From Isoetes taiwanensis (taxonomy: Eukaryota; Streptophyta; Lycopodiopsida; Isoetales; Isoetaceae): a DNA stretch of 64,000 bases. The stretch lies in contig JAJEKV010000075.1 in assembly GCA_021234155.1 (NCBI GenBank), positions 122,001-186,000 of the forward strand, written 5' to 3'. Both the position numbers and the translations under genes were made by a program. Positions 1 to 37,462 of this stretch are shown piece by piece. The notes beneath the pieces were generated by a model that saw only the letters and a list, made by a program, of their open reading frames with translations, did no database searches and was not told the DNA's origin. Each line of letters starts with the position of its first letter. Position 1 is the stretch's first letter.

Positions 1-73
1 TGTTTTGCAGGGTTAGTGTAGGTTCGTCACCTTAGCGTAATGCTGAGGACAACATTATCCTAAGGGGGGAGAA
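1..73 (+). mobile_element. Gypsy-1 internal 3' end with polypurine tract
   Basis: This is the last stretch of the internal region of an LTR element that runs off the left edge. A purine-rich run (AAGGGGGGAGAA, 62-73) directly precedes the TG of the LTR, as a polypurine tract does. The same arrangement, reverse-complemented, follows the LTR at 61610-61670, including a matching GAGGACAA-type segment. That identifies the downstream LTR as a 3' LTR. Confidence 0.75.
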
Positions 74-1813
74 TGTGACGTTTCAGGGAAATATAGGCCA
101 TAAATACATATATTTCCAGGACCGTCACTATACAAGTCTACCTTCATAGCCTTGTATACCATAGATTAGTGGTATATGGTGCATGGCTAAGTTATTCATA
201 TAACTTAGCCAACCTTAGGTTAAGACCATTTCCACGTGGCCTTAACCTATTGAGCACCCGCCACACGGGATACCCTATTGGAACCACGTGGCAGGTGACA
301 TCAACCCTAACCTATAAATAGCCAAACCCTAACCCTATGCCATTTTTCTGGCTCCAACAGTCTGGGAACTCTTTTCGCACTCGAAACTCCATTTCGAGAA
401 CCGTCTGCTGTGGCATAGCCTAGCACAGCAGCCCCCAGAGCGTGTGCGCGTCAATAGGAGTGGGAACTACTTCGACCATTTTGAAGACCATGGAGAGGCC
501 GGGAGTAGGAGGGAGTTCCTCAAGAGCAAGTATTTGGATTAGAGTTCTTTATAAATCATCTGGAAGTAGGACTCCAGATGAGTTAGCATTTCGTGTCTCT
601 AGTAGAGCCTTCCTAGACACCTCGGTATAGATCTTGAACCCTAGTCAATGAACCCTAATTGTAAGTTAGATGTATATGATTAGGTTTAGATGTTCTTCTC
701 ATTATTGTCATGTTATGTGGATATGTGATGTTGATTGATCATGTTTGCTCCTCTTGTATTGGGAAGGGGGGTAGAGACCTAGTAGCCATTACTTAGTAAT
801 GCTCCTAGTTAGACCTTTAGTTCCTATTATTATGCGGCCTGTGCACAAGAACCCACCTAGCTATGGGGACTATGGAATGACTGAGCACTACATAACGGGG
901 ATAGTAGCTAAAAGGATGGGAATTTCTGCTGAGCACGGCTACTGGGGACCCATGGCAAGCTAGGCTTATGGCCGGTCACTTCTTGTGGGCGGGGCATGGG
1001 TCTGACACCATCTGGATCATGGTGCTGCCCCTCGATCCTCGGGAGTTCTGCGTGTCGGCACTACCCCTCGTGTTGGGGTGTTAAGTCGGGGAAGAATCGT
1101 GTGTCGCCATGATTCTCTAGCTGCCCTTGGAACTGCTAGACCCGGGAAGGGGAGATGGAACCCTTCCTGCCTCAACGTGATGGCACGTGTTCTCTAGCAC
1201 ACACATGGATCCCTCATGCTCGGGGAGGGGACTCCCTGATCTGCCTCATTGGATCGAGGAGATGTAACTTGGAGTAGTATCATAGGGTGATTCCATGGGA
1301 TTGCATCTCCGTAGGGCTACAATCATGGCATAGCATGTTTCAGCCTATCTGCAAAGTGTGCACAGGAGGGGCGGATGGAGTGGACTACTCTAGCCATTGT
1401 TCTATGCCAGCCAATGCCATGTTATACCCATGTCTACTGATATCTTGAGGCCCTGATCGTTAATCGACCCCATGGAGTCTGAGCCCAGAGTAGAGCCTTA
1501 CTTATGACATATTGCCTATGTTATCTTGTTCTTGTATTGCTATTTAGTTGATGATGATGGATGGGCCACCCTTCGTGGTGGTATATTATTTTGAGCATGA
1601 TTGATGTGTGCTAACATGTATGTACGCTTCACCGTGATAGGATTCCCATAGAGAACTGGACTAATGACACTTCGTGTTCTCGCCCGCACACTTGGCCATC
1701 CCAAGTGGTCCGAGTTAGACGGAGGGCCCTTCCATGGTGATGTAGTCGCCAGGGGAGGGGAAATTCCCGTATTTATATGATGGGAGCATCGTATAGATTT
1801 TGGGAGTGTCACA
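74..1813 (+). mobile_element. Gypsy-1 3' LTR
   Basis: A 1,740-bp LTR begins TGTGAC and ends GTCACA, so its termini are short inverted repeats. A TATA-like box (CCTATAAATAG, about 311-321) lies about 240 bp in and is followed by CCCTAAC-type repeats and a GC-rich R/U5 region. Related LTRs occur at 37532-39129 (divergent U3) and in reverse at 60096-61609. The element body lies left of the window. The flank after 1813 is antisense gypsy RT, so this copy inserted into an older gypsy element. There is no coding sequence in the LTR; short ORFs here are chance. Confidence 0.85.
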
Positions 1814-1985
1814 ACGATAATCTATGCACATGCGCATAGTTTCATCTTTCTTCTTAGCTAGCAGCATTGGAGCCACAAAAGGAGACTTACTTGGCCGGAT
1901 AAACCCCTTTTCAAGCAATTCCTTAACTTGCTTTTGGGACTTCCTTAGAACGAGCTTTGGCGGGTTAATAGACAATTGATGTAAG
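1814..1985 (-). pseudogene. gypsy reverse transcriptase fragment (RT N-terminus)
   Basis: The minus strand encodes the start of a Ty3/gypsy RT: the family motifs [13 protein letters not shown] and MRMCIDYR are readable. The open frame is cut by the LTR ending at 1813, directly after the IDYR motif. The rest of the RT (including the YXDD catalytic box) is not in the neighbouring sequence and lies beyond the left edge or is lost. It is not a continuation of the gypsy protease fragment at 17552-18334, because both contain the same linker just before the RT. Confidence 0.8.
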
Positions 1986-4024
1986 TAATTTAATACAATT
2001 TAGTATGATTATGAGAGACCATTAAACTAATACTGGTGTTGGAAAAATACATACATGGTATGTATATGATGTTTATACAGGAAGTCCATAAATATTAAAT
2101 TGTAGAGGAATTGAGGTTTTTGCTCTGGAGGCAAACCTTCCGAGGAGGAGTTTTATGTGAAGGAGATTTGGAGAGTGAGCAGGACAATTGCAGAGACAGC
2201 TTAGCCAGGTGGGTGGTTTATAGCTTACATCGGAGATGCTAGAATGGTTAGATGTGATCTAGCCCAAGAAATAATTATGAGGCTAAAAGGATCTAAATTG
2301 TAAGTAATATTTAATGGGAAAATATAATATTATTGAAGCTGAAGGATTCGTTTGTGTAAAAAATAGGTGAAGGATGGAAGAGCCATCCGAGTCAGATTAG
2401 AAAATAATGTAAAGAATGTTTAAGAGGATAAGGGTTTGAGATTTCACAAATTAAAAGACTATTGTAACAAAGTATAACTATATTGAGGCCGAGATGGCAA
2501 AATTCGAAGTTGTTTTGAAGCAGGTCGGATTGGCCTGGGAAATGGCAGAAGTGGACTCAGGAAGGCCAATTTGAGGATATAAGACCCAGCAAGAACCTGA
2601 AAGGGGGCCATAGCTACCATAATCAGAGTTTGGAAATGGCACAACCACAACAAAATCTCCACCAAATCTGCTTGAAACTGGCATTAAGAAGTCGAAATCC
2701 AGGCCCAAAGGGCCGATTTGCTTGTCTGAGGCCCCAACCAGGTCAGAAATGAGAGAATCGAAGCTCAATCTGCGTTGTTGGCCGTGAGTTCGTGACCTTA
2801 AAAGGGTCGTGCCCTAAATGTGAAAAAAATATTATGTGGTTAGTAATTGAATAGTAAGTTTAAAATGTAAGTTATGAAATTAGTTTAAAGCTATTAAATA
2901 AGGTAAGTGGATTTGGCCCTAGGAATTTATATTCCTAACGTTCTGAAAGCCGAGTTAGTCACTGCTAAAGGAGATGGTGGTAAATATTAGGTTAATATCT
3001 GCATATTAAATTACGTAATTTAATGTGAAACTATGGTCGCCCTCATTAAACTATTATTAACAAGGAGCTTGGGTAAGGAGACGGAAATTAATGAAATAGG
3101 AAGGAAATGCATTTATATCTAACAACATTAATAATGTAATGTAGAAGTTAGGACCTTTCTCTATGGGAAGAAAGAGGTTGGAGAGCATGAATTTGCCAAG
3201 AGGCGACATGAGTTTGGAAGTTGCTTAATAATGGAAATTTTTAGAATGGCCATAGGAAAAACTCATGACCTAGTGGTATTAGCACGAAAATGGCCCTAGT
3301 TACACTAATAGTAAACATTAGAAATGTGATGGTCATCGTTGTTATATTGGTTATGTGCCATTATTGGTGTGGTATCAAATGTTGAATGCATGGTATGTTT
3401 TATGTGGAATTGGCATTTCCGTTGTGGTATATATTAATGAGAAATACATGTGAATTGCATCTGAATTGTTGATATCATCAGTATGGTCGTATTGGATATT
3501 GCACTAACTGCAAGGATAGTGGTATTGAACATGTGGAATGTGACATATCTCGGGGGACAAAGTCCATGTGCGGTGGCTTGGACTTGCGGTGCGTGACATC
3601 GGACATTGTTATCCTGGCTGGATGCTTTGTCGCGCTACATGGCAGAAGTGGTCTTCCAGTGCTAGTCACAACGTGGATGGGTGTGTACACATGAGGGCAA
3701 ACCAACCGCATTGGGTTTGCGGCAGGCCCGATCAACCAGGTGGCATGTTAGAACCGGAGTAGGCCTTTGCATGCGGATGAGATTGCTAATGCGTGGAATA
3801 TGAGGTGTTATTGTGGTATATGTATGCATACTAATTTGGTTGGTTGGATGCAGTGGGACTATTGGTGGTAAGCTTGCATAGGTGCTATGGTATAAGTTGT
3901 TATGAATAAATAGTTCCTATAATGCTCCAAACCTCCACTTGGTCTTTAGGACTAACCCCCGGGTTGGTGTAAGCAATACCTGATGGAGCCGAGTGCAGTA
4001 AGGTCGTAGAGACCCGGGGTTAGA
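1986..4024. other. AT-rich stretch with no recognisable gene
   Basis: I see no credible coding region, RNA gene or element terminus. Reading frames on both strands are short, overlapping and low in similarity to anything I recognise. Composition changes near 3480-3760, which is richer in GC, so this is probably several old repeat fragments joined together. Confidence 0.5.
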
Positions 4025-4369
4025 GGCCTCGATAGGATCAAAGAGTTGGAGGCAAGGTTTTCCCTAGGAGCGAAGTTCCGGCATGAGGAGGTGCTAGATT
4101 TCCTTCGTGAGTTGGAGGACGAGGCTAGTGAACATGTGCCAGAGATCGTCCAGAGTTCAGAAAAAGGCCATCCTTCCGGGGTAGAAACTAGTATGGGATC
4201 TACCCCCGGTTTTGTAGAACCTTCTTTGGAAGGCAATGAAGTCCACCTGTATGCAGATGAAGGGGATGACCTCCCATTGGATTCGAGGGATCAAACAGCT
4301 ATAGATGCCTTAATGAGTGAACCCTCTGATGATAAGAGCTCTCTAGTTGAAGACTTTTCTCATAATTAA
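4025..4369 (+). pseudogene. acidic coiled-coil-like ORF fragment, unidentified
   Basis: An open frame of about 115 codons ends at a TAA near 4369 and has no convincing ATG start. The product is acidic, with a heptad-like stretch (around EVLDFLRELEDEASEHV) and an Asp/Glu/Ser-rich tail. Its 3' third lies inside the 328-bp sequence that is duplicated on the far side of Copia-1. It could be the end of a retroelement ORF or a captured gene exon. I do not recognise the family and assign no function. Confidence 0.35.
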
Positions 4370-4589
4370 TAGTTATACGGATTGTGGGTTTGACATTGTT
4401 GAAGGTCTTGGATGTATATACATGTATTATATGATTTGACTTCAACGCTTGTTGGATATCTAATGGAAATAAAGATTGGATTCTTTACTGTGTTATATGG
4501 ATTTACAAGTTGCATAAGATATTTAATTAGCCCAACCTCCCTTGTCAAGTGTTAGTAGTAATGTAATGAAACCAACAGGATCCCAAGCT
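4262..4589 (+). repeat. 328-bp direct repeat, left copy, abutting Copia-1
   Basis: This segment starts GGGGATGACC and ends GATCCCAAGCT exactly at the first base of the Copia-1 5' LTR. The same sequence reappears at 17224-17551, starting exactly after the last base of the 3' LTR, at a constant offset of 12,962 bp with no indel. I count about five differences between the copies, all transitions. It behaves like a target-site duplication about 65 times longer than normal. Confidence 0.9.
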
Positions 4590-5182
4590 TGTTGGAATTC
4601 ACCATATAACTGTGCTAGACAGAGACCATGATAGCCTAACCTAACTCTATTCTGTGAAAATTCAAGTATCTACCCTAATGGTTTTGATAGACCTAAGGGC
4701 ATGTACATATTGTAAATATTTAAAGTTAAATGACCATTGGTTTTAATGGTCAATGGTTGGCTTCACATTTTGGAGCCAACCGAACATTCAAATAAGAAAG
4801 AAATACAGGTGGCCCGGATCTCTTGGCAAAATCGTCGAAGCTACCAATTTAATGGACAGTGCCGTGTAATGCAGATTGAACTGGCAGATTGAAGTACTCG
4901 GCAGACGATTTACTGGTCTAATTCATCCATTAGATCAATTCATAGATCATCGAAACTGCTACAGTAAATGGTTTAGTCCAAATGAACAGTGTTTCTCCAA
5001 TAAATATCTTTACCATTGTATTTGACTATGGTCGTTGAAACAATTCATGAATGTGTTTATCTATGCATTGAAATATTGTCTTTATTGAAAGAACTACTCT
5101 AGTCAAGTTGTTGAGCTAGAGCATTGAGATGTATTTAGAATAATTGCATTAATTATTCTATAGAAAAGGCTTGATTCTAACA
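4590..5182 (+). repeat. Copia-1 5' LTR
   Basis: This 593-bp LTR has TG...CA ends and the same length as the copy at 16631-17223. It is followed two bases later by a tRNA-Met-type primer site. The LTR should carry the element's promoter and transcript start; I see no unambiguous TATA box. Confidence 0.93.
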
Positions 5183-5184
5183 TT

Positions 5185-5196
5185 TGGTATCAGAGC
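5185..5196 (+). promoter_or_regulatory. Copia-1 primer binding site (initiator tRNA-Met)
   Basis: TGGTATCAGAGC is complementary to the 3' end of plant initiator tRNA-Met, the standard primer for copia minus-strand synthesis. It lies two bases after the LTR end and just upstream of the gag ATG at 5198. Confidence 0.93.
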
Positions 5197-5197
5197 T

Positions 5198-8100
5198 ATG
5201 TCCAGCAGATTTGGTGCAGGTCTTTTAAGCACAGTAGAAGTGTACAAAGGTGGCTCAGGCTTTCAAGTTTGGAAGGATGCCATAAAGCATATTTTAGAGG
5301 TGGAAGATCTTTGGGATCTTGTCAACCCTTCTGGAGATTCTGATAGTCAAGAAAGCTCTGCCACAAGTGCAAATGTGAGAACTGGTAATGGAGGTAGCTC
5401 AAACACTAATGTTGCAGCTATGAGTACAGGGGACACAAGCTCAGGACAGACTTCTGCAACAGTTGCTGCTCGAGTTGAACCAGGAAGAAGCCTATTTGCA
5501 AACAAAGGTATTATTACCTCAAAGGTCAGTCCAATTATAAGACTAAAACTCAGAAATATGACTGCTAAGGAGATGTGGAGTTATATGTTGAAACATTATG
5601 AGGAGAAAACTTCCTCTCAGATAGATCTCCTTGAAAAGGAGTTGAGGAAGCTAAAAATTAAGGATGAAGATGATGTCTCAGAGTTTTTTAATAAATTTGA
5701 CAACATTGTGGCAGATTTAAGTGGAGCAGGTGTGAATCTAACTGAGAGATATCAGGTGCTTGCCATAGCCAGAGCAGTTTCAGAAAATGAGAATCTTTCA
5801 TTATTCATTAGGAATATAGCTAAAACTCGTGAGGATGCTGAAGGGATCCTAAGAACAGAAATTGAACAAAAAAGAGTAACGAGGAATGATGAGGAAGAAT
5901 CCACTGAAATTCTTTATACAAGAAGAAAGGGCAAGGGCAGAAATGAAAAGGGGACATGTTTCTATTGTCATGAGCAAGGGCATTTTAAAAACACTGCCCT
6001 AAATTGAATAAAGAATTTAATTGTTACACTTGTGGAGGAAGGGGGCATTTGGCAGCAAAGTGTCCAACAGCTAAGGAATATTCAAAGGAGAAAGGAAGAG
6101 GAGGCTCTAGCAGAGGAGGAAGAACATCTAGGGGTCGAGGTGGCAGACCTACAGGAACATACTTGGCCAGAGAACAAGCAAATGAAAAGGAAGAAATAGA
6201 GGAGGAAGATGAGGTACCAAAAATTTGTGCTTTCATTGATAAATCAAAAACTAATAAATCCCATGCTCTTGTAGTTGATCGTGGAGCTGAAAGATCAGTA
6301 GTTCATACTACTGATCTACTCAAAAATGTTGGATCAACTCATTCAATAAGTGTTCAAGTTGGAAATGGAGCTTTACAAGTAATTGAAGGCAAAGGGTTGC
6401 TGCAGTTGTTTGATTTAAATGGAAATGTAATTGACATTGAGAACGTACTTTGTGTAACAACTCTTGTCAAAAATCTCATTTCAGTGAGTAAACTTGTTGA
6501 TTTAGGTTATAGAGACACTTTTGACTCTGATGCTTGTAAGATTTCAGTTGGAAATAAAATTAAGTTTCTTGCCAAAAGGGTTGGAAATCTTTTTCAGTTG
6601 AATGATGTGGTTGTTGACAGCATAAATTCTGTAACAAAATCAAAATTTGCACTTTGGCATAATAGATTGGCACATACACATTGCAACAATTTGAAATACA
6701 TAGCTAAAAAGGGATGGATCAAATGCAAAGAGCTAAAATCTGAAAGATTTTTATGTGAAGGCTGTATGCTTGGCAAGATTAATAGATTGCTTTTTCCAAA
6801 ATCAAAGCACAGGGCAACTAGTGTTCTAGAACTAGTCCATAGTGACCTTTGTGGTCCTCTAAATGTGAAAGGAAGGACGAAAAAAAGGTATTTCATATCC
6901 TTTATTGATGATTATAGCAGAAAATGCAAATGTTATTGTTTGGCTCGAAAGTCTCAAGCTTTAAATGCTTTCAAACAATATGTCTATGAAACAGAAAGGG
7001 AAACTAGAGCTAAATTAAAATGCATTCGATCTGACAGAGGAGGGGAGTATTTATCAAACAAGTTTAAACATTTCTAATGGCATAAAAAGGCAACTTACTT
7101 GTAGGTACAGTCCCCAACAGAATGGGGTTGCAGAAAGGAAAAACAGAACATTAATGGATGTTGTGAGATCCATGATTAAAAATTGTGGACTACCTAATTA
7201 TCTCTGGGAGGAGGCCTTGAAGTCAGTTCAAATCCAAAACAACTTGCCTACATCAAGTCTAAAAGGTAATGTTCCTAACTTCCTCTGGTCAAATTCTAAA
7301 GAGGATATAAACTATGATATGTATAAGTGCTATGGTTGTTTGGTGTACTTTCACATACCTATAGAACTAAGGAAAAAATTAGATAGCAAAGGGGAAATTG
7401 GCTATCTAGTTGGATATGATGAGGAAGCAAAAGGATATAGAATTTTTTGTCTTCAAGAATAAGGAGATAATTGTAAGCGAGATGTTTGCTTTGATGAGAA
7501 CACCTTGTATAAGGACAGACATGTAAAATCTGCTGACAGCAAAACTATTCAAAATGTAGAACAAGAAATAGATAAAATACAAAGCTCCAGATTAGACATA
7601 TGTTCAGATGATGACTCAGATAGGGATTCTGAAAAAAGGAGAAGCTGAAACTATAGGTTGTGATGAGGAACAAGCAACAAAAATTCATAATGAAGAACCG
7701 TAACCAAATTTTGATTCAAAGGAAGAGAAAAACACAAGTGGAGAGACTGCTTGAGGAAGCAAACATTCAGAACAGAAAGAGGAAAGAGTTTGAGACTAGA
7801 AAGACAGGGGCAGGAACTTGAACAATAAGATATAGTCCAAATCCTAGCCATTATGCATGATGAAATTGTCCCCCATCAGTAGGCAGACTCGAACTTCAGA
7901 CAAGGACAATTACCGAAAAGCCATGCGGGGAGGAATTAGAATCTTTTATGCGTACACACACTTATGATCTTGTAACTGAACCAAAGGAGAAAAATATTAT
8001 AGGCAGCAAATGGATTTTTAGAATCAAAGATTGTGCAGATGGAACAAAAAAAATATAAAGCAAGGTTAGTAGCTCAGGGATATACTCAAAAAAGGGGCAG

Positions 8101-8598
8101 AGATTATGACGAGACATATTTTCCTATTGTGAAACTAGCTAGCATTAGATTGTTGCTTAGCTTGGCAAATGCTAGAAATTTGGAACTCCATCACATGGAT
8201 GTAAAAACAGTATTCTTGAATGCGAAAATTGATGGAGATGTTTACATGAGACAAGCTCCTGGTCTTGTTCAAAAGAATGGCATGATGTGGAAGTTAAACA
8301 AGGCAGTTTATGGCCTAAAACAAGCTCCAAGGGAATGGTATTTTTGCATAGACCAATACTTGAGAGAACATGATTTTGAGAAGTTGAAAAATGATGGAAA
8401 TATTTATAGATTCAGAAATGGAGAAGATTATTGCATGATTGCTCTTTATGTTGATGATTGCATAATGATTGCAAATAATGCTCATTGTTTAGCTCACTGC
8501 AAGGAAATACTCAAAGCCAGATTTCAAATGACAGATTTAGGAGAGTTAAAACAATTTCTTGGCATAGAAGTATATCGAGATAGGGAAAGGAAAATATT

Positions 8599-8604
<6 letters not shown>
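5198..8604 (+). pseudogene. Copia-1 gag-pol, 5' portion (gag to RT), disrupted
   Basis: Translation starts at ATG 5198 (MSSRFGAG), immediately after the primer site. Order seen: gag (5198-5940), two CCHC knuckles (about 5955-6065; the first lacks its last Cys and is followed by a TGA), aspartic protease near 6275 with DRG where DSG is expected, integrase with HNRLAHTH, CEGCMLGK, DLCGPL and the DRGGEY region (about 6650-7060), a stop at 7075, then NGVAERKN. RT follows (about 7990-8604) with YVDD intact. Frames break at about 6001, 7076, 7460 and through 7460-7990. The reading frame stops at the L1 insertion and resumes at 15696. Not functional as written. Confidence 0.93.
8592..8604 (+). repeat. 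L1 target-site duplication, left copy
   Basis: The 13-bp AAATATTGAAACT within the copia RT frame recurs at 15683-15695, where the RT frame resumes. Removing one copy and everything between them restores an uninterrupted copia coding sequence across the site. That proves a single insertion event bounded by these positions. Confidence 0.93.
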
Positions 8605-8641
<37 letters not shown>

Positions 8642-8643
<2 letters not shown>

Positions 8644-10537
8644 TGAACATCATGTTACCCTGATGCTGATGCACTGAACGTCATCATGTTGCTCTGAACA
8701 TAACATAAAATGGCCAATGGGGCATCTAGTTTACTATAGGAGCATGCTCATGTTACCTTAGAAATGGATTTCATGCAAGAAATATACGTGTACTTTGACC
8801 AATTTGGGTTTATAAGGTAAGAACCTTTTATTAAATTTGTGGATCTCCTTTTTATATCCAATTACCTTTAATATACATGCATGCATGCATGTTTGCCATG
8901 TGTTGGCATTTCTATTGCACTATACCTTTTTGTTGCATGAAAGTGATGGTTCTACATATTTTCATATGAAAGGACAAGGATCAAAAAGATGAAAAAAACT
9001 TATTTACCTTATTATTGACGTCCACGGCCAAGGCATGGTTCATTCATAATACAAAGGGCAAGGGCGTATCTTCCCATCAAGGTAACAATACCATTTGGGT
9101 GATAATGGTAGAGGATATCACCTTTTTCTTGAACTCTCTTATATTTCATTGCCCTAATATATTTCTGTGACACGAAAACTGTGCCCTAGCACAGCCGCTT
9201 CTCCATTTTCTCATTCTCATTGTATGCGATGACTCCTTGCTTCATCGCCATTCTCCTTGCTTCATCTGCTTTGTTTCACAATGATTGAAGAGTGTATACC
9301 TTCACAATGTATGCTGTAATGCTTTCCTTTACACAAATATGAGACTGCCAGCAAGTCCAGCCATGGCCTTGCTACAAAATCGTTGGGAGCTGCTCCAGTA
9401 TTCAAAAGGTGCAATGTTGCTGATGTATTCTGCAAAAGGCCTCTTTCATGTTCTGCACAGTGCTAGTTTTAAAGACCTGACATTCATGCAACAAGAAAAC
9501 TACAGAAGTGTTTTTAGCTTCCAGTTGGGGCTTCATAACAGGTTTTTATCACTAGATTGTTTATATTCATTGCCTTTTTTTTACTATGTTCAAATGCTGG
9601 CTATGAATAGTCTACATTCTATTTCTACATCTGCCATTCCATTTTCCTCTAGAATCTAACTTTGGGCAAAGGGTTACAAAGGGTGATCGGCCATAAGCCG
9701 AGAGGACCCAATGTACCTTTTGGCCCTTGCTATGTTACCATTTTCATGCTAACGTAGTATTGTTTGGCTGCAGGTACGGGTCCTCTCTTCTCTTTGTGAT
9801 TCCTTTGCTGTTTATGTTAGTATTTTGCTGGAAGTGGATATGGAGCATCCAAGAAGCTGCTACCAAACGTCAACATGATAAGTTCTTCCTTTTGTCTGGT
9901 GTAATGCTGGCTGAAAATTATTGTTAAGGGCTATCACTTGTTAACTTCATGGAACAGAAATCAATTTACTAATCTAAAACATACTTGAGTAATTAAGCAT
10001 GTAAGTAAGCATTCTTGTGCTTTGGATTGGTTTATCCCACATATTGAGAAACAATATTCAAATGCTTTAAGTTTATATTTTTTCATGTTTACATGTAAAT
10101 GAAGGATTCACTTCACAGACCTTATTTTTAAACCAGTGGTCATTTTGATTTAATATGATATGCTGCTCCTTTGTAATTGCTACTCAGATATAATGGCATA
10201 TATGCTTCTTACTTTTTTCAAGACTACACAGTGTCACATCTAATGTTACTAGTGTCACATCTAATGTTACTGCATGGTCTTTGTGGCTCTTGCATTAGTA
10301 TTTTTGGTTTTGTCGCATGCTTTCATGGACTCTGTTTGCTACTGTATAAGTAGCAAGGGAAGTTCAGGCGTATTAATGATTAATCGTCTGATTAAGTTTA
10401 CATGGTTATAAAGATTCACTTGTCTTAGACTTTACTTTGGATATCAGACTATAGGAACACAAGTACCAAGTTTGAATTCGTTCAAATTTTGGATTGATAA
10501 TATGGATTGACTGAAGCTGATGCTGACCTAGGATACT

Positions 10538-10540
<3 letters not shown>
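8642..10540 (-). other. Putative 3'-transduced segment between two poly(A) tracts
   Basis: About 1.9 kb of AT-rich DNA without LINE coding lies between the two T-runs. On the + strand there are two modest ORFs (9285-9659 and 9727-9927). The second has a hydrophobic stretch and a CAG/GT-like splice context near 9770-9775, so the segment may include part of a host gene on the strand opposite the LINE. I cannot identify it. A 21-bp tandem duplication (GTGTCACATCTAATGTTACT-type) lies at about 10232-10274, and a short CATG tract near 8876-8893. Confidence 0.6.
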
Positions 10541-10571
<31 letters not shown>

Positions 10572-11070
10572 AGAGAATGGGGTTTTTTTCATTAATTATA
10601 GAAAAAGGTACAAGAAGTTAAGTGAGCCATTAATTTGGCCACCCAGATTAAAACATGCAAGCATATTTAACATATTCAAAAGAAATGCTATAGCTGTAGC
10701 AAAAAGTCTGAATGTGTCCAAAATTTAAAGTAGAGATCAGCCTTGCTGGAGGCTTGAAATTTGTAGTGTTGTTCCTTAGTAGAACCATCCTTGAGTCAAA
10801 ATTTCTCAACTTTGTGTGAGGTAGCATTCTGATGACAAAATCCTGCAAATCCTGTTGATGTTCCTGCAGCAGATAAAATGTAAAACAGGTGGAGAGAAAA
10901 GATGAGCATATTCGTAAAGGGAGTGTGATAGGAAAATAGTTGAAGGATTGGAAAATGACTAAGGATTTGGGTGAAAATGATAATTGTGAAGGTAGTCATA
11001 GTTGACTTGGAAGTGTGGCTGCAGAATAAGAGTGTTTCCATTTCCCCAGTTCAGCTCTTGAATCAGGGTG

Positions 11071-14000
11071 TCAAAGTTGGTTGTAGACATCAAAGATGAT
11101 CAAAGTGCCATATGCATCCGCCAAGCATCCGGTGATGATAGTAGCATTCTCTGTCAGAGAAAAAATTGCCGGGTCCTGGTCATTCTTCCTCGGCAAGCAT
11201 TTCTTTCCATGAACCACCATAACTGCACCATTAGATATGTACTCCTGCAGAATTCTATGGCCCAATCTATTTCATGATCAGGGATATCTGGTATATCAAT
11301 GTCCAGAATAACTCCTCGACTAGGCCTCCACATATCATTCTCTCGTGGTCTCGAATATCATGCACTAATCTCGGTTCGGGAAAAGTCCAGTGACTCACCG
11401 GCTCAACAGACGTGTTGAAATCTCCGCTAAGGCTCATCATGTAATCTAGCGTAAAGACATTCAATGTTAGTATGAGTGGCATTACGTTGTAACTTAAAGC
11501 AGGATGATAATGGCCTATGAAGTTACCAATAGTGTGCCATTTACTATCAATGTAATCTTCACCTAAATGCATTTGACTAGTTGTTACCAATTCAATGTCA
11601 TACATAACTTTGTGTTTTTTATCCAATGTGTGGATAAATTTTTTCCTCCATAATGACATACATTTTACGTGCTTCCATACATTCCACAATGCAATAAAAG
11701 CAGAGAATTTTTAAAAGCATCATCATTCATCATAAATTCCAACAGAGGGTAGCGGGGCAAACAATATTGAAAAGAATTTTCAAACCACAACAAAAAGGAG
11801 TAAGTTTGGCACACCCAAAAATGTGTTCAAGTGTTTCAAGATATCCACAACCTAGGGGGCGGTTAGAGTTCGGAGAGTTGGTAGTTTGATTTGAATGCCC
11901 GATATCATTTCAGATTTGGCACACTTTTTTGTTTGCAAGAAGCCAAATAAAGTATGAGATTTTTGGAGGCGATAGGAATGCCAAATGTTTGTGAAAAGCC
12001 TCGTTTTGTCTCTCTCGAGAATCCCAAGACACTTTTGCCTTTGAAGGTAAAGTAGGCTTATTTAGGCATTTGTAAACCTTTGAGACAATGTGATGTGGAT
12101 TTTCCCATAAGATTCCAATCATTAATAATAGGATTATCATTGAGATTTAAATTCACCGACCTTCGCATTATATATTTGAAGAGAATCTTGTCGATGAAGT
12201 ACCTCTCGATCTTATGCTTCAGATTGGTCCATGAGATCCATCTTGTCCGATCCCATAGATCTCCAAGATTAAGCACATTGCATTCTTTCCATTTCTTATA
12301 CAACTTATAATGTCTGATAGCCATAGTAGTGCTGTTTCTAGATAGGTTAGAGTTCCAAAAAATACTCGTGTTGAGGTGACTGTTCTCCAACTTAGAATGC
12401 TCAAAAGTCAAGTGAACCTTATTCCAAAGCTACAATCATGTTTCTCATGAGAGGAGAAATAGAAGAGGCAAGGTGCAAAATAGTAAAAAGGCAAGAGGAG
12501 GGCAAACTATGAGAGATAGAAGCATACTTTTTTGGATGGCTACAAGAGAGCCTGTGTTTAATGAAAATGGATCTTTGGGTTATTGTTCATGAACAAAGAT
12601 TTCCGTGATATATTTACCGCCGAGCATAGCTCAGTAAAATTAGATTCTTGCAACCAAAACCACCTTGGATTTTGTTTACGGTAATTGAAGTCCGATTGAC
12701 CATGTGGTGCTTCCCCAAATGAAATTTCTCACTAACCTTTCAATGGATGATAAATACATTTAGGAGCAAGAAGTGCGTAAGAAAAAATAGATGTGAGAAG
12801 TCCGCAATAACCGAAGTTTTGCAATTATGGTTCTTCCAGCCAAAGAAAGACAGTTGCCATAATTGCCTAGCTTCCTTCTTATCTTTTCCACAATGGGAGT
12901 CCAAAGACCTTTAAGACTAGGATTGAGAGATAAAGGCATACCTAGGAGATTTGTAGTTTCAATGAGCAGTCCATACATTTAATTCCCCGCAATATTATCG
13001 AAGATCCAACTCACCAATTATAATGCATTTATTCCTGTTCAAGTGAATCCCAGAGGCAGCTCCAAAATTATGAATAGTCAGCAGAAAAGTGTCAATGATA
13101 GATGGATCATTTTTAAGGAAACTGAAAGAATCATCTGCATATTGGAGAATTGCAAGATTTGTGATGTTGTCGGGAGAGTTAAGCCGATTAATTTGTCCAC
13201 ATGTTTGAAGGTGAGATAACTCTGGTTAGCATCTCAAGCACGCTAAAAAAGGTAAGGGCAAGAGGGCACCCTTTGTCCGACACCTCGGGCTAGTGGAAAG
13301 AAGAAACCGGGGGATCCATTAACAAGAACAAGTTGATTGAGAGTGGAATTTAACCCCATAATAAGCTTAATGATTTTATCATTGAATCCTAACTTCTTGA
13401 GGGAGAATTGAAGGAAGTCCCATCTAACCATATCAAAGGCTTTTGAGAAATCTAGCTTCGACAAGAAGATACGATTCGATTGGTCAATTTGTTCCAGTGC
13501 ATCCCTTCCATGGCAGCAATATAATTATCAAGGATGTATCTACTTGGAAGGAAAGCAGATTGGTTACAACTAATAACCACTTGAAGGTGAGACTTGACTG
13601 CTTTTGCTATAATTTTAGCAATGAGATCTTGTAGGTAGAGTTTGTCAAAGAAATAGGCCTCCAATCGGAGAAAGATTGAGGATTATCCACCTTTGGGATT
13701 AAGGAGATAAGGCAGAAAAGAGCGGTGGTGCGTGATTCGAAGTTCGAAGCCTTTGATCATACACATAATATCATTTTTCATAATGTCCCAAAATTTGATG
13801 TAGAATTCAGGAGGCAAGCCATCAGGACCAGGACTTTTCCCTTTGGCTAAGCTATTGAGAGTTGAAAAAATTTCATCCACAGAAGGGATTGCCTCTAAAG
13901 CTTGGGACATAATTCTGTCACTGTTTAAATTGTTATCATTTATCAAAGCAGTGAAGGAATTAGCACTAGCAGATTGCATAGGTGTGTCAGAAGTAATTGG

Positions 14001-15198
14001 AGATGTCCTTTTGATCTTCTAGATTATTACCATTATCATCCTTGATAGAGGAGAGCTGACTTTTTAAAAGTCTGGATCTGGCCATCCTATAGAAGAATTT
14101 TGAGTTACCATGGTCCATTTTGGAAAAATATTTGAGCTTACATCTAATTGTTGAGCCTTTGGCCTCTAGTTCTTCAATGGTTTTAATGCTCATCTCAAGG
14201 TTCCCTTCTTGCCTGTGAAGGTCAATGTTTAGGGGGTCATGTTGGAGTTTCAGTCTAACCTCTTTCATTTCTTCAAAGTAGACTCTTTTTTTCAAAGAAC
14301 CTTGATGTCATGAAGGTGTTTTGCCCACTTCTTAATCCAGGACTTGGACTCCTTTAGATTGGAATAAAAACGTTCTCATAGAATTTGTAGATCTAACTCT
14401 CGGGAGAGAATTGTAAAATGTAGTGAAATCTCTACAAAAGATGTCAGAGTCAAGAAGGGAGCAGTTTAGCTTGAAAGGAGTATTTCCATGTCTCTTAATG
14501 GTGAGCATATGTTTAGTGATAAGAAACTGAGGCTGGTGGTCAGAGATGGAGGTGCATTCATCACTGTAGACAAAGCAGTTGTCCCAAAAATCATTGTGAA
14601 TGTTGTTGATGTAATATCGGCCCAAAGGCAATGTGAACCCCGTTGTTCCCATCTTGCTTATTTGACCAAGAGTAAGCGTATGGAGGAAGGAATATGGTGT
14701 AAGAAATGCCCTGCCTAGCAAGTGGTCCCAATGAGTTCTCTCATCTATGGACATATTCAAATCTCGCCAATTTTCATATCCCATGTGGGAGTATTGTTGA
14801 AATCACCTCGCCATGATCCAAGTTTCATGTGTTTGAGTTGTTAGCCGCTTGTTTATAGCAGGCCGTGGTAGATCTGATCCTAGAATCAGAGAGGCATAAA
14901 TGTTGATGACTCATTTCGAGAATAACAGATTGCCAACTTTTACAGTGTGGATCAAGTATAGATCAAGCTATGATCAAGGTGTTTCCAAATGATGCGAGAC
15001 CTCCGTGAGGTGCCAAATTGGCTTCAATCCAATTAGAGGAGAATCCAGGTCCAATCCAATCCGGAGGTTTGAACATTCAAAATTTGGGAGTCTAAGCTCT
15101 GTGGGAGGATAATGTCGATCATAGCTTCCGATTTGGGAAATTGTCCTTCTTCTTCAGGGACCCTTTATTCCTCTGAGATTCCAACTTAGAATCTTCAT
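11071..15198 (-). pseudogene. L1 ORF2: endonuclease, reverse transcriptase, C-terminal domains (degenerate)
   Basis: The start is ATG at 15198-15196 with the typical plant L1 opening MKILSWNLRG. The apurinic-type endonuclease continues to about 14480, with the SIDERTHWDHLLG region at about 14735 and SDHQP at about 14540. RT motifs follow: GKSPGPDGLPPEFY (about 13800-13840), KLDFSKAFDMVRWDF (about 13420-13460), QYADDS catalytic box (about 13125-13145), and the SLAGRTIIAKLRL region (about 12800-12850). A zinc-knuckle-like zf-RVT region lies at about 11740-11950 and a WNVWKH C-terminal segment near 11680. Numerous stops and shifts, beginning 15 codons in, make it non-functional. Confidence 0.9.
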
Positions 15199-15682
15199 GA
15201 CGAGGAAGATAGCAGCAGCCAAAAAAAGGGTAGTTAACAATGTTTCCTAGTTCTGAGTCTAGTGTTTGCTGCAGGAGTGTTGAGAGTGCTGAGAATAGTC
15301 TTTTTCTTTGCTTTCTTGCCTTTAGATTTAGGAGTGCCAGAGGAGTTGTGATGAGGTATGAAAAAAGCATAATCATCCCAAGAAATGTTATCAGCAAGGG
15401 TATTTTTGGTAGTATTTTCCTTGTCAGAATCAGTGTCATCAGAGGTTGTGTCTGCAGAATTTTTTCCTTCAGAGGAATTGTCATGATGATGGCACATCCA
15501 AAATTTAGATCTGCAGCAGTCTATGTCAGTTGAGTTTGTTGAAGTTGGATAGATGGAGGTAATGGAAGTATCCATCAGGCTGTCTCTTTCATTATTATTA
15601 GTAACAGAAACAAACTTAGAGTTTAAGTGGAAAGATCTTGCCTGGGAATGTCTTGGTCGAGGTGTGCAGCAGCTGCAAGTGC
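15199..15682 (-). pseudogene. L1 ORF1, C-terminal part only
   Basis: A minus-strand open frame runs from the insertion boundary to the stop near 15234, just upstream of ORF2. It is Ser/Thr/Asp-rich with a basic lysine cluster (KGKKAKKK) near its end, consistent with the tail of a plant L1 ORF1 nucleic-acid-binding protein. The N-terminus is absent because the element was truncated during insertion, as is normal for target-primed reverse transcription. Identity as ORF1 rests mainly on position. Confidence 0.6.
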
Positions 15683-15695
15683 AAATATTGAAACT
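15683..15695 (+). repeat. L1 target-site duplication, right copy
   Basis: Exact second copy of AAATATTGAAACT from 8592-8604. Copia RT coding resumes here. Confidence 0.93.
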
Positions 15696-16476
15696 GAAAC
15701 AAAGCAAGCATGTTCGTAATATCTCGAAAAAAGATTTAACTTGAGGATGCAAATCCAGCCTCAACTCCAATAACCCGTGTCACAAAGTTGATCAAGAAAA
15801 AGGAATATCGAGAAAGAGATAAGGGATATGGAAAAGGTGCCATATAGAGCTTTACTCGGATGTTTGCTTTATTTGTCCAACAACACCAGACGACATATCC
15901 TACATTGTGAATGTTCTTAGTAGAAGATCTCACAATCCAAGCAAAGAGCATTGGCAAGTGGGAAAAGAGTACTCGATATTTGAAAAATACTCAAGACTTT
16001 GGCATAACATATGACCTGATAACTGAACTTTAGCATTTAGTGATGCCGACCGGGAGGAGACCCTCGCCTTAAAATCAACATCGATATGTAATTTATCTAG
16101 GCTGGAGCAAGAATTTGAAAAGCAAAAGGCAAAGTGCTATAGCAATGTCAACTGCAAATGAGTATGTGCCTCATCTTTGGTTGCAAAAGAAATAACTTGG
16201 CTCAGAAGACTTCTAGAAGAATTAGATTGTGCACAAGTAAATCCTACAAAAATATGGACAGACAACCAAAGTTGCATATCAATAGTCAAAAATCCTGTTG
16301 ATCATGAGAGGACAAAACATATTGAGCTCAACATTCATTTTATCAGGGATTTGGCTGAGAAAAGGTATATTCAAATGAGTTACATTAAGACAGAAAATCA
16401 GGTTGCTGATATTTTTACAAAAGCTTTGACAGTTGGTAAATTCGTGCAACACAGGAATAGCTTAAAAGTGACATGA
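15696..16476 (+). pseudogene. Copia-1 gag-pol, 3' portion (RT end and RNase H), disrupted
   Basis: This continues the copia frame interrupted at 8604. Weak RT-connection motifs are visible (degenerate YRALLGCLLYL-like and EHWQ-like segments) and then a clear RNase H C-terminus from 16177: EITWLRRLLEEL, DNQSCISIVKNP, HIELNIHFIRDL and VADIFTKAL. Several stops lie between 15740 and 16170. The frame ends at a TGA at 16474-16476, about 155 bp before the 3' LTR. Confidence 0.88.
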
Positions 16477-16616
16477 TTAAGTGAGATTGAAGTTGTGTTG
16501 AAACAGGGAAAAACAAGTTGCAGACAACCTCACAGAACATTATACGGTTGATAATTTTTTTACAGTTGACAGGTTTCAAACAGTACAAAGATTCTTTGAA
16601 AGGTTATGTAATTATA

Positions 16617-16630
16617 TGGTGAAGGAGGAA
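16617..16630 (+). promoter_or_regulatory. Copia-1 polypurine tract
   Basis: A purine run (GGTGAAGGAGGAA) directly abuts the TG of the 3' LTR, the expected plus-strand priming site. The same GGAGGA-type tract precedes the LTRs of the Copia elements at 46231-46245 and 59879-59895 (on the minus strand). Confidence 0.85.
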
Positions 16631-17223
16631 TGTTGGAATTCACCATATAATTGTGCTAGACAGAGACCATGATAGCCTAACCTAACTCTATTCTGTGAAA
16701 ATTCAAGTATCTACCCTAATGGTTTTGATAGACCTAAGGGCATGTACATATTGTAAATATTTAAAGTTAAATGACCATCGGTTTTAATGGTCAATGGTTG
16801 GCTTCACATTTTGGAGCCAACCGAACATTCAAATAAGAAGGAAATACAGGTGGTCCGGATCTCCTGGCAAAACCGTCGAAGCTACCAATTTAATGCACGG
16901 TGCCATGTAATGCAGATTGAACTGGCAGATTGAAGTACTCGGCAGACGATTTACTGGTCTAATTCATCCATTAGATCAATTCATAGATCATCGAAACTGC
17001 TACAGTAAATGGTTTAGTCCAAATGAACAGTGTTTCTCAAATAAATATCTTTACCATTGTATTTGACTATGGTTGTTGAAACAATTCATGAAGGTGTTTA
17101 TCTAAGCATTGAAATATTGTCTTGATTGAAAGAACTACTCTAGTCAAGTTGTTGAGCTAGAGCATTGAGGTGTATTTAGAATAATTGCATTAATTATTCT
17201 ATAGAAAAGGCTTGATTCTAACA
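16631..17223 (+). repeat. Copia-1 3' LTR
   Basis: 593 bp, co-linear with 4590-5182 and with identical termini. It ends CTAACA at 17223 and is followed without any gap by the second 328-bp repeat. Confidence 0.94.
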
Positions 17224-17551
17224 GGGGATGACCTCCCATTGGATTCGAGGGATCAAACAGCTATAGATGCCTTAACGAGTGAACCCTCTGATGATAAGAG
17301 CTTTCTAGTTGAAGACTTTTCTCATAATTAATAGTTATACGGATTGTGGGTTTGACATTGTTGAAGGTTTTGGATGTATATACATGTATTATATGATTTG
17401 ACTTCAACGCTTGTTAGATATCTAATGGAAATAAAGATTGGATTCTTTACCGTGTTATATGGATTTACAAGTTGCATAAGATATTTAATTAGCCCAACCT
17501 CCCTTGTCAAGTGTTAGTAGTAATGTAATGAAACCAACAGGATCCCAAGCT
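17224..17551 (+). repeat. 328-bp direct repeat, right copy, abutting Copia-1
   Basis: Co-linear with 4262-4589. It begins at the first base after the 3' LTR and ends GATCCCAAGCT, after which the sequence changes to antisense gypsy DNA. The few differences from the left copy (for example within CCTTAA-T/C-GAGTG) are transitions, at a rate similar to or lower than the LTR divergence. Confidence 0.9.
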
Positions 17552-18334
17552 ACGCCGGAGAGGCCAGCTTGGCAAGCCCTTTACACTTCCTCTAACTTAA
17601 GAGGATTCAAACGGTAAGGTGCTCTTGCCATTGGTTTAGTTTCAGGCTTAAGATCAATCTTGCTCCACTCCCCTTCACGAGGTGTGCCTGTAGGCAACTC
17701 CTCAGGAAACACATCCTTGTATGTTTTCAAAAGATCAAGTAATTGAGGATGAAATTGGGAGCTTACATTCGGTTACTCTACAAGTGAATTGCAAGTTTTT
17801 ACACATATATCATTATTATATACATATAACCCAAAAACTTGATTATTATTCACTCTAAAAGTAGTTTTGGCCTGAGTGGCCGATAACAATTTCCCCGACT
17901 CCACATAAGGTGATCCTTGTATACTAACAGACTTAGAGTTCTTTAACTCAAAAGGTAATACATGGGATGTGCAGTCAATGAGCAGACGTGCAGTTTGAAG
18001 CTGCTTTATCCCCAAAATGACATCATAACATTTTAAACTGATCAAGTCAACATCAATTTTGATGAGGGCCCGCCTCTCCTTCAACCACATATGGAGTCAC
18101 CCTTGTCAGCTCCAGGCCTAGCTCCCTTGTTAAGTCTGCGGACAAGAAATTGTCAGTGCTCGCAGAATCAATAAGAACAACTACATTCTTTTCTTTGATT
18201 CTACCTAGAACAAGAATAACTTTACCAAAGAAAACTTTAGAAGAAACATTTACCATGCTTTCTTCCCTCACGATAGCCGGCAGCATCTTCATGCCTTCAC
18301 CATCCAATGGTGTTTTGGAAGTTGTGGCTACCAT
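17552..18334 (-). pseudogene. Gypsy-2 aspartic protease and RT linker
   Basis: The minus strand shows the retropepsin signature as VLIDSASTDNFLS (canonical gypsy is DSGSTHNF; here DSAST). Downstream is the CYDVILG segment that follows gypsy proteases, and then the RT-proximal linker with PEELPTGTP and MARAPYRLNPLKLEEV. The frame shifts near 18060 and a stop follows LKLEEV at about 17580. The product would be incomplete and inactive. Confidence 0.85.
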
Positions 18335-18339
18335 TTTCT

Positions 18340-19290
18340 TTGGCTTTTATGGCTTAGGACATTCCTTCGCGTAATGCCCCATGCCCTGACAGTTATAACA
18401 CGTTATAGCTGCTTTTTTTTTACTAGAATCTTTAGACTGCCCTGCAACCTTTTTGTTTGACTGATTCCTTTTTCTTTTCTTAGCATATGACACTCCATCC
18501 GCAAAATTTTCAGTTTATTTTAACTTCCAATCAAACGTTTCTTCATGACCAACTAGCTTTCTTGCAAGTTCAACTGCTTCCTTGAAGGCTTTGGGTTCCG
18601 CTTGCAAGACGTGTATCTTAATACTGGTTTCCTTTAGGCCATTCACAAAGTGATCTACCCTCATCTGAGGGGTAAGGTCGAGAAGTCTCGCAAACAACCC
18701 TCGGAGCTTACTAACCTACTCCTGTGATTTGCACCGACTCCCTGAGTGATATAAGTGCATGACGACTATCAAAATGAGGCGTATACTCATCTTTAAATTG
18801 TTTACAAAAATCGGTCAATAACCCGAAGGTCTAATGTGGATAACCCACCATGAAGCAGCAGCACCTTTTAGCTTAAGAGAAGCGTGCAAAACCTTTGTTG
18901 TATCGCTTTTCTTAGTAACAGCATAATATAACCTCATGCGACCAAACCAGAGCATGGCATTCTCAGATGTACCAGTTCCATCGAATTCTGGCATCTTCAT
19001 CTTCTCAAGAGCCTTGATCTCCTCCTCAGAAAGTCCATTCAAGGTCTCTTCATAAGGCTCACCAACAGCTGGGTTTGTTGTATCTGGCACAATGCGACCA
19101 ACCCCAGGTGGTGCACTCGTACCCGCTCGTCTCGTAGCAGTACTCTGTACCGCTTGAGTTGTAGGGTTGTTTCCAACACTTTTAGAATTCTGCAAGAACC
19201 GTCCAAGGGACTCCTTTAAGCGTTGTTCCCGGGCATCGCTCTCAATAATCCACCAGTTCATTTGCCTTTGCATGGTATTCAAGGTTTTAG
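18340..19290 (-). pseudogene. Gypsy-2 gag with CCHC zinc knuckle
   Basis: A retrotransposon gag runs on the minus strand. An N-terminal basic/coiled segment is followed by the KALEKMKMPEFDGTGT region, LWFGRMRLYY, and LKLKGAAASWW (capsid-like retrotrans_gag domain, about 18820-19010). A downstream segment has VDHFVNGLKE (about 18640), and a CCHC knuckle CYNCQGMGHYAKEC lies at about 18360-18405. At least three frame breaks (near 18820, 18700, 18510) separate the parts. The region upstream, 19300-20430, is also full of stops and may hold gag N-terminal remnants. Confidence 0.85.
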
Positions 19291-20847
19291 CAACCAGAGA
19301 TTGGTCATCCTAGGAACCCCCTTGTGTAGTAGTAAGTACTGTTGCAATCGTCCGTATTGATGTTATAAGAGTATAGCTCTTTGTGGAACGGAAATACCCC
19401 CAGGGCGTTCAGTTCCAGTAGTAGATTGTACAATAATCGCAGTTACCATAGGTACTAGATTAACCGGAGTTACAGGAGATAACTCTACACTGGGTCGTGC
19501 TTGTAGTAACGTTTCAAAGTCAAATACAGGCAAATCCTCCAGGTGGATACCCAGGAGTAGAGCAAGTTATATAAGCAGAGTAGGGGCTTTTGGAGACGGA
19601 CACGAAAATCAAAAGGTAGCTTCCCTCTGATCAGATTGAACTCTCCTGTCTTTACTTCTGCTGTGTTTTGTGCTGGATTGTCTCTCTGAGATAGCTGGAG
19701 GTCATATCGGCCTCTCTGGAGTAATTTCCAAGGTTTCTTTGACAGTTGGCGATTTCTCCATCATTCTTGTGTTTGCTCTTATTTTGAGCAATACTACTTT
19801 AGCAGTAGTAGTTTTTGTGTAGAACCAATGAAGCAGGGCTTCATGCTAATCCTGGGGATTAGTTTTCAGTTGTGCATGGGGAGTTCTGGGAGCTCAAGGC
19901 TGCGGGAAACTCGGGGAGTTCAAGATAGTGCAATTGATCCTACTTTTTGTAGGCCTTGACACTTGTATTAAAAACCTTACAAGCATATCATTTAACTTTG
20001 GTAGAGGGATTTCTTCGATTGAATCGAGCTCCACTGCCCTGCTCAGGCCCTCCACTTGTCAAACTTCTTCTTGGCCCACAAAATCACCTTAGGTGACTTG
20101 TTCTTACCACCTCCTTCAATTTCCTTCAGCATTTCTCATCAATAGCTATGAATTCTTAACAGTCCTCATCCTTGGCATTTGCCTCAATAAAATCCTGACA
20201 AAACCACTCTTCCTTTGCAAAACTCTCCATAAAATTGTTCACATAATCTTGATTCACATCCTCAAGCATATAATCCATTTCAATAGCACTATCTCCCACA
20301 TATGCTTCTACCTCGGCAATTAAAGCAAATGACGGTCTACTAGGTCGAGCGCAGTGAGAACTAATTGTATACAAACTAATAGAAGACAAGAACCAACATG
20401 ACATGCTTTCGTCTGCCATTCCAACCACCCTTGTAAAAACACAAAGGAGAGCATGTTATCTCAAAAAACAACAGAAAGCACAATGTTAACCTTAAGAAAC
20501 TCGAAAGTATTAGGAAACCAACGAACACATAAGTCCAGAGATTCAAGAAAGTCGAAGAAACTCAATAGAATAACTCCAAAGACTTGAAGATCTCGCAAGA
20601 ACTATACTCAAAAATCCCCACATAAACTCGCAGATCTTCACATAAACTTGAAGATCTAGTGGAAAATCGAGGCTAAAATACAAAGATCCAACAAAGCTGG
20701 AAAATACTCACCAGAATCAGAGAAAATCATCGAAGATCCACAAAAACTCAAAGAAACTCCAGAGAAGATGCTACAAAACTCTCAGGCAAGAAGATCCTCA
20801 CAGACAACTCCAAAAATCACAAAAATTAGATCAAACGGCAGCTGCAC

Positions 20848-21775: not shown

Positions 21776-23102
21776 ATTACACGATATACCTATACTATAT
21801 TGCTACATCACAGTACATGTCAAGCATTTTGACATATACAAGTGTAGAATATGCTAATGTATTATACATGCATGCACCTAGATAGCTAGCATGTTAATAT
21901 ATTGTAAGGGGTTGCCTACGGAGATATAAATCCATTGACATATATTTATTCCATGCACCCATTAGGAACCATTATACTATGCATGTCAGTATAACATAAT
22001 CCATGGACTATTTATGTGACACATGGGTGCCAACTCATATTATCAACATGTTTTTATGCATGTAAGTTGCACTTGACTCCATAAAATCCAATAACATTGT
22101 ATTTATGACTCATACAACTATTACACACCATTATATTCCACATGTTAACACTAGACGCCCCCTCGGGACCATTCCTGATCCATGGACCAGAACTGGCCCA
22201 CATGACCTCTGCCACTTAAATCCATATAACTCACGAAAGAAATTTGAATTTTATAATATACCAACATCATTGAGTCTTCACTTATTTCTTGATGACCTCT
22301 GAGAATTTCAAGACCAATGTGGTCACCTATACCTTGTGGTGATTGCTCAAACATTGGAAAATCTGGCAGTTTTTGCACCAGTCCAGAACTGCCTTGTTCG
22401 ATATTTCTAGCATAAAGTGACCTAAACCTTGCTAAAGTTGGAGGTATTTGCCTGTTTATCATAGTTTTATGTTCCCATGTTTTCTTGCTATCACCTGACA
22501 TCGGTGGAAGTCGCCAAACCTGACATCTGACATCGGTGACTAGCATAAACTTTATATCTGTGTTACTGCTATAAAGCATTGTCATCGAAGTAGAATAATA
22601 TTACATATAAGTTATCTTTCATGTATATTATATTTTTTATGGATGCAAAACATTCTTGACAATAGAAATCTCTAGTTGCATGTTAAAATAACATGTTATT
22701 TCTAAGGTTTTAATTTATATAAGCACGCATCACCATTTATGGTCCACGAAACCAATTGTATAGAGCATAGATCTCTCACTGGCCTTATATCCATTTTTTC
22801 CCATAGAATGATACTATGTCTTTTTAGCTTCGATCACATGATTTTTAAAAGGTGTAAGTGAAAGTCCATGTAGGTTCAATTGGTTATAAATACTCTATAA
22901 ATTCTCAATTTTTTGTGCTTCAACCTTACCCTTAAATTATGCAAGCTAACCTAATCAATTAATTTTATCCTATAGAGAATTATACAAGTAAACTATATGT
23001 GAAAGTTGAGATCAAAATTGATTAAGGTGGCTCCATTAATGATTTTTAAACTTTCAGTCATTTGGACCAATGATGGTCTGCAACTGGACTACAGATAGCG
23101 GT
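21776..23102. other. AT-rich stretch; one unidentified minus-strand ORF
   Basis: This stretch is mostly low-complexity AT-rich sequence. A 144-codon minus-strand ORF at 22151-22585 is the only frame of note. It includes PTLARFRSLYARN and a GT-like donor context after SEDSMMLV, so it could be an exon fragment of a host gene, but I do not recognise it. No element ends were found, though Copia-2 must end abruptly at its right margin. Confidence 0.4.
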
Positions 23103-23351
23103 CTATCTTGGTTTTTTATAGTAAAGGTTTTTTATATTTTCCCTTGGTCCTTTTTGCATTGGTTTCTTGACATGAGATATACAGCTCTGACTATCTGTGA
23201 AAACTTCTGTTGGATCATTTTGCTTGCAACTTAGCTCTTCTAATAATCTCCTTAACCATGTAATTTCTTTTTTGTCGCTAAAGAAGAAGGCATGTACTAC
23301 TCGCCTCGGCCAGATGACATAGCTATGGCACTTTTGTTTTTGCATCTCCAA
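23103..23351 (-). pseudogene. Copia-2 RNase H C-terminal fragment
   Basis: After a frameshift near 23300-23350 the RNase H continues as EITWLRRLLEEL and TDSQSCISHVKKP. It then degenerates where HERTKHI-type sequence is expected and stops. The remaining ~60 residues found in Copia-1 are missing, which marks the 3' truncation point of this element. Confidence 0.8.
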
Positions 23352-26505: not shown

Positions 26506-26619
26506 AATCTCAGCAGATTCTTCATCATTTCCTTTTTGTACTTTCTTTTGTTCTACCTATGTTCTAATAATGCTCTCAGCTTCATCCCTGTTCTTAGCTA
26601 CATTTCTAATAAAATGACC

Positions 26620-27183
26620 CTATTTGTTCATTCTCAATCTTGCTCTAGCAATAGCAAGAACTTGATACCTCTCAGTGAGGTCAACTCCAGCACCTCCTAG
26701 ATCTGCTACAATATTGTCAAACTTATTGAAGAAATCAGAAACATCATCACCTTCATGTAATTTCAAATTTCTAAGCTCATTATCTAACAGATCTATCTGG
26801 GACGAGGTCTTTTCCTCAAAATGTTTGAGCAAATAGGACCACATTTCTCTTGGTGATTTATTCCTTAATTTCAGTCTTATGGTAGGACTCACCTTTGATG
26901 TGATAATTCCCTGAGCCTCTTTGATTCTTGCATATTCAGATCTGCCAGATTTAGCACCAAGAGTTACTGGAGATGTAACTTCTTCTGCACTTGCCTCCTC
27001 ATTTGGATTTGATGGCCCTGTTGCAGACCTTGCCACTGAGCTCTCAGCAGTACTAGTTTGAACCCCTGTCACATGCTGAGGATCTATCAAATCCCAAAGT
27101 TCTTCAACCTCTAAAATGTGCTTAACATCATCCTTCCAGACTTGGAAGCCAAGTCCTCCTTTATAGACATCAATGCTGCTCAA
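26620..27183 (-). pseudogene. Copia-2 gag (N-terminal part)
   Basis: This gag frame contains VYKGGLGFQVWKDDVKHIL, SPTIRLKLRNKSPREMW, KTSSQIDLLDNELRNLKL and DDVSDFFNKFDNIVADL, all shared with Copia-1 gag. The N-terminal residues before VYKGG are replaced by a short different sequence, and the primer-site/start-codon region is partly deleted. A frameshift near 26620 separates it from the knuckle region. Confidence 0.9.
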
Positions 27184-27200
27184 CAGGCAACCAATAGTGC

Positions 27201-37460: not shown

Positions 37461-37462
37461 AT

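Follow-up and report, generated by a model that had tools for sequence, protein, structure and literature searches.

Among LTR elements, members of the HERV-K (HML-2) group were reportedly described by Mamedov in 2004 as carrying long target-site duplications (TSDs). In the excerpted text of Kahyo 2017 (PMC5488345), 451 putative HML-2 TSDs were inferred; Table 2 of that work gives 8 sites longer than 10 bp, six of these spanning 61-450 bp, and the empty alleles were sequenced for TSDs of 250 bp and 111 bp. The same excerpt warns that elements in duplicated regions can recombine to give "pseudo-TSDs", and allows that the long HML-2 repeats, and the empty alleles too, may stem from later recombination between long repeats. 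A second described system is uncoordinated joining of viral ends by retroviral integration, which according to the part of PMC2857682 at hand gives duplications and deletions of various lengths, in cases arising from mutations or reaction conditions. That part also cites the correct TSD length at 15/15 HIV-1, 8/8 MLV, and 7/7 spleen necrosis virus sites. In a third, breaks induced in mouse zygotes captured retroelement sequence that, according to the excerpt of PMC4516963, was truncated and mostly joined at microhomologies. For plant LTR retrotransposons, the available sections of PMC6911290 report TSDs of 5 bp in 87.2%, 4 bp in 11.6%, and 6 bp in 1.2% of elements, in a survey restricted to 4-6 bp that therefore sets no bound on long ones. 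No plant Copia element with a TSD of hundreds of base pairs was found in the literature searched, which lay mostly outside subscription journals, and such an absence is unproven.

The window analysed here is a 64,000-nucleotide stretch of the Isoetes taiwanensis assembly, in which an earlier note had described a 328-bp duplication lying on either side of a Copia element. Pairwise alignment confirmed this description: the left copy (U1, 4262-4589, plus strand) and the right copy (U2, 17224-17551, plus strand) are each 328 bp long, share the same orientation, and align with 0 gaps and 5 mismatches, all of them scattered transitions (BLAST: 98.48% over 329 bp, 0 gaps, E 5e-166). The exact abutment of the repeat on the LTRs was likewise found at both sides, as the end of U1 at 4589 adjoins TGTTGGAATT, the beginning of the 5′ LTR, and the start of U2 at 17224 adjoins ...TTCTAACA, the terminus of the 3′ LTR. 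Outward of the repeat, the two copies have 1 base in common at the left end and 0 at the right, so that both repeat boundaries are the LTR ends. The unit begins with GGGGATG and ends with CCAAGCT. No exact direct repeat of 1-14 bp joining the two outer LTR edges was found, and the LTR edges thus lack the 4-6 bp TSD of canonical integrase insertion; what abuts both LTR ends is a long direct repeat of the HML-2 type. No further copy of the 328-bp unit occurs within the window, where the one other match at E ≤ 0.1 was 25 bp long with 88% identity. An LTR-end-like TGTTGGA at position 189 of the repeat was discarded because the 7-mer is common, being present on either strand in 151 of 1224 sampled 328-bp windows.

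Plant LTR retrotransposons typically have paired TG...CA LTRs, a primer-binding site, a polypurine tract, and, in the Ty1/copia superfamily, integrase before reverse transcriptase. The element between the two repeats has the same layout. Its 5′ LTR (4590-5182, TGTTGG...CTAACA) is followed by TT and TGGTATCAGAGC, which we take to be the usual plant initiator-Met tRNA primer-binding site, and the purine-rich tract GGTGAAGGAGGAA lies immediately upstream of the 3′ LTR (16631-17223), both the primer-binding site and the tract having been judged by eye. The first internal part (5183-8604) encodes, by Pfam, a copia-type gag, a zinc knuckle, a Pol beta-barrel domain, gag_pre-integrase, the integrase core, an SH3-like domain, and RVT_2, with PF14223, PF00665, and PF07727 exceeding the cut-off in that order, which places integrase upstream of RVT_2 as in Ty1/copia elements. 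The second internal part (15683-16630), with the polypurine tract at its end, appears RNase H-like by eye, and three-frame Pfam searches returned no match there. All these features are on the plus strand. The TT that separates U5 from the primer-binding site is missing at the right junction, and the polypurine-tract bases are absent at the left; both ends of the element therefore look like integrase-processed termini. Where the element departs from the ordinary plant pattern surveyed in PMC6911290, as far as its available sections go, is in having no 4-6 bp TSD.

The earlier note had called this element complete, which holds for both of its ends; internally it is split by an antisense insertion, and its coding sequence is fragmented into several frames. 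The 13-bp sequence AAATATTGAAACT (8592-8604) precedes a long poly-T on the plus strand and recurs at 15683-15695, where the Copia sequence resumes. The 7.1 kb between these copies (8605-15682, minus strand) contain an RVT_1 match of 20.8 bits, under the Pfam cut-off of 29.6, and are read as an ordinary LINE-like insertion with an ordinary TSD, later than the Copia element, which would measure ~5.5 kb by its coordinates once this nested sequence is subtracted. At least one insertion in this part of the assembly is thus structurally sensible.

Other retroelement sequence is present in the window. A second Copia element on the minus strand (22154-27201), ~71% alike over the gag-integrase region, has open frames of 614 and 486 codons, and no direct LTR pair for it was found between 19001 and 29500. 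The LTRs of the first element had no other match in the window at E ≤ 0.1. Direct LTR-like repeats of ~0.8 kb at 45396-46211 and 47427-48267 are 92% alike and enclose a short interior, gag-like by eye, with partial similarity to the window's Copia elements. For this pair, which served as a control, a clear short TSD was not seen by eye, and there was no long flanking repeat among the best 80 BLAST matches listed. Inverted segments at 1-1454 and 60434-61681, 77-87% alike, are perhaps chromovirus LTRs, since a chromodomain (62503-62928, minus strand) lies near the latter. A cluster of short direct and inverted repeats occupies 36449-39762, ~77-88% alike and several with a common core. The frame at 30141-30653 matches RBP47-type RNA-binding proteins of plants, all visible organisms among the 120 matches listed of 1101 being plants, which identifies the genome as that of a plant.

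Divergence was compared between the repeats and the LTRs, a check proposed in the earlier note. The LTRs, each 593 bp, differ at 15 positions (10 transitions and 5 transversions); the note had counted about 16. The repeats differ at 5/328 positions (1.5%) and the LTRs at 15/593 (2.5%), a comparison of low power (Fisher p = 0.36) that is compatible with one date for both. Under a model with repeats twice as old as the LTRs, the probability of finding 5 or fewer of the 20 changes in the repeats is 0.012, and under 1.5 times the LTR age it is 0.052. It is thus unlikely that the repeats have twice the age of the LTRs or more. Of the 15 LTR differences, 7 sit within 67 bp, with a post hoc P of 0.024 at that width and P values of 0.89, 0.15, and 0.13 at 30, 100, and 130 bp, respectively. 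This clustering is a faint and unconvincing hint of mixed LTR origin, which would count against a single insertion.

The note's interpretation is partly supported overall: its reading that the duplication could date from the insertion fits, with the exact boundaries at both sides and the compatible divergence standing in its favour. In this one case from one assembly, we consider one Copia insertion that produced a 328-bp TSD to be somewhat more probable than all else together. The basis for a single insertion is the exact LTR ends, the lack of a short TSD, the sharing of at most 1 bp past the repeat, and a divergence compatible with one age. On this model, integrase would trim both cDNA ends normally, and the ends would then be joined to the chromosome without coordination, on opposite strands and 328 bp apart instead of ~5, after which a polymerase would fill or displace both strands over the 328 bp and leave one copy on each side. 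We infer the joining step, the fill-in, and an empty site with a single copy of the unit. A length of 328 bp is close to that of the DNA of two nucleosomes.

A single insertion of this type would represent a kind of long TSD already known from HML-2, here in a plant Copia element. Like the long-TSD HERV-K (HML-2) elements, it is an LTR element with a long direct repeat abutting both ends; unlike those primate retroviruses, for which the empty alleles of the 250-bp and 111-bp TSDs have been sequenced according to the excerpt of PMC5488345, it is a plant Ty1/copia element with a 328-bp repeat seen at the occupied site. It likewise resembles the uncoordinated retroviral integration of PMC2857682, as excerpted, in that ends would be joined at the wrong spacing to give a duplication of variable length, whereas the event here is reconstructed from one old insertion. 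The fidelity of normal integration cited in that excerpt would count against a 328-bp TSD. Joining by integrase is favoured over end-joining of raw cDNA because the ends look processed and at most one base is common beyond the repeat. More tentatively, and at less than even confidence, the plant Ty1/copia integrase itself may have joined the ends 328 bp apart, making this a true TSD, and events of this kind may happen repeatedly in the LTR elements of plants, going unseen because surveys that require a TSD of 4-6 bp record them as having none.

The warning about pseudo-TSDs in the excerpt of PMC5488345 holds for this locus by analogy, as two Copia insertions plus a crossover would look identical. 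Two elements of the same family and orientation, each making a normal 5-bp TSD, would have inserted ~323 bp apart in two alleles or paralogues, and either a crossover within the element or an assembly merging two haplotypes would have combined the left flank of the first insertion with the right flank of the second; we judge both the paired insertions and this joining step unlikely, though less so than the explanations that follow. Such a history yields exact LTR boundaries and no common short TSD, and a related model is put forward for the long HML-2 TSDs in the same excerpt. It is also in line with the somewhat greater divergence of the LTRs than of the repeats, a difference that is not significant, and with the slight clustering of the LTR differences. 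Its two implied 5-bp targets would be AAGCT and GGGGA, neither with the AT-rich centre that the available sections of PMC6911290 report for plant 5-bp TSDs, a weak point against it. Because it needs two insertions within ~0.3 kb and then a crossover or mis-join, an argument from rarity, we rank it second to the single insertion.

The sequence to the right of U2 bears on a third explanation. A truncated Ty3/gypsy fragment on the minus strand (17552-19309), identified by Pfam and by eye, has a zinc knuckle above the Pfam cut-off and capsid-like and aspartic protease matches below it. By eye, its frame extends to the beginning of the reverse transcriptase and can be recognised as far as 17584; Pfam gave no support for this reverse transcriptase start, PDB searches with the gypsy piece in two frames, one of them holding that start, returned no reverse transcriptase, and no protein relatives of the fragment were found at E ≤ 0.001. 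Since the frame stops 32 bp from the end of U2, that end would appear to lie near an older or simultaneous breakpoint. On the left, the six frames of 1-4590 gave only a sub-cut-off DUF1580 match in Pfam and no gypsy continuation, in a search of the kind that also left the right-side reverse transcriptase start undetected. An open frame of 119 codons (4010-4366) enters from the left flank and has the first 105 bp of U1 as its end; it matched nothing in Pfam at E ≤ 0.01, nor were protein relatives found at E ≤ 0.001. A search of a plasmid collection with 3400-4589 gave 9 records, the best 5 of 9 being short matches (E 1-4), and in IMG/VR pattern scans with the gypsy piece, the left open frame, and the Copia reverse transcriptase, the patterns matched and relatives were not confirmed.

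The near-coincidence of the gypsy-frame stop with the end of U2 is not accounted for by a single insertion and counts against it. It would be accounted for, with U2 ending beside the truncated frame (17552 vs 17584), if a double-strand break had captured Copia cDNA, the 328 bp being filler for which the left broken end was the template, or the product of filling in a long staggered break, and the gypsy fragment being the other broken end. Both the capture and this reading of the gypsy fragment seem improbable to us. The excerpt of PMC4516963 cites breaks that captured Ty1 cDNA, but the ends of the present element are complete, processed-looking, and untruncated, and its junctions share at most 1 bp, unlike the captures in mouse zygotes described there. 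A possible hairpin across the right end of U2 (17545-17572, plus strand; CCAAGCT-14 nt-AGCTTGG), whose left arm stops at 17551, would also fit sequence that was older and already contiguous. This is a weak, post hoc observation: the hairpin has a 7-bp outer and a 3-bp inner stem, such stem arms end at 228 of 63,860 window positions (0.36%), an inner stem ends no more than 2 bases away from 2.4% of positions, and its fold has a z of -1.74, with 12 of 200 shuffles folding equally well. If the gypsy breakpoint were simultaneous with the insertion, break repair with copied filler would gain.

A plain assembly artefact, in which the second copy is a false duplication, is slightly less probable again. 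The analysis covered the assembled sequence, which leaves room for one; the two copies differ by 5 scattered transitions, though haplotype differences could yield these, and the nested insertion in the same Copia element carries a normal 13-bp TSD. A falsely duplicated empty-site contig would not be expected to start exactly at the CA end of the LTR. By argument, too, a simple duplication error should not yield genuine TG and CA ends at the two sides; an artefact would need the merging of two real Copia insertions. A further option in the earlier note, that Copia landed at the join of two tandem 328-bp units already in place, would make an unusual integration length unnecessary, but is very unlikely, because ordinary integration, with its 4-6 bp TSD, should have left either additional bases between one LTR and its repeat or a unit with identical ends, and neither is present (the starts and ends of the unit differ at 3, 4, and 4 positions for 4, 5, and 6 bp), and because the divergence makes it unlikely that the repeats greatly predate the LTRs (P = 0.052 at 1.5 times and 0.012 at twice their age).

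If a single insertion with a 328-bp TSD is confirmed, long TSDs would not be peculiar to one human retrovirus group and would represent a minor integration outcome in a superfamily far from retroviruses. Existing assemblies offer a simple test, in which LTR elements with no 4-6 bp TSD are screened for long exact repeats next to their ends. With long TSDs, recombination between the repeats could also remove an insertion precisely, and insertions would therefore be weaker as irreversible markers.
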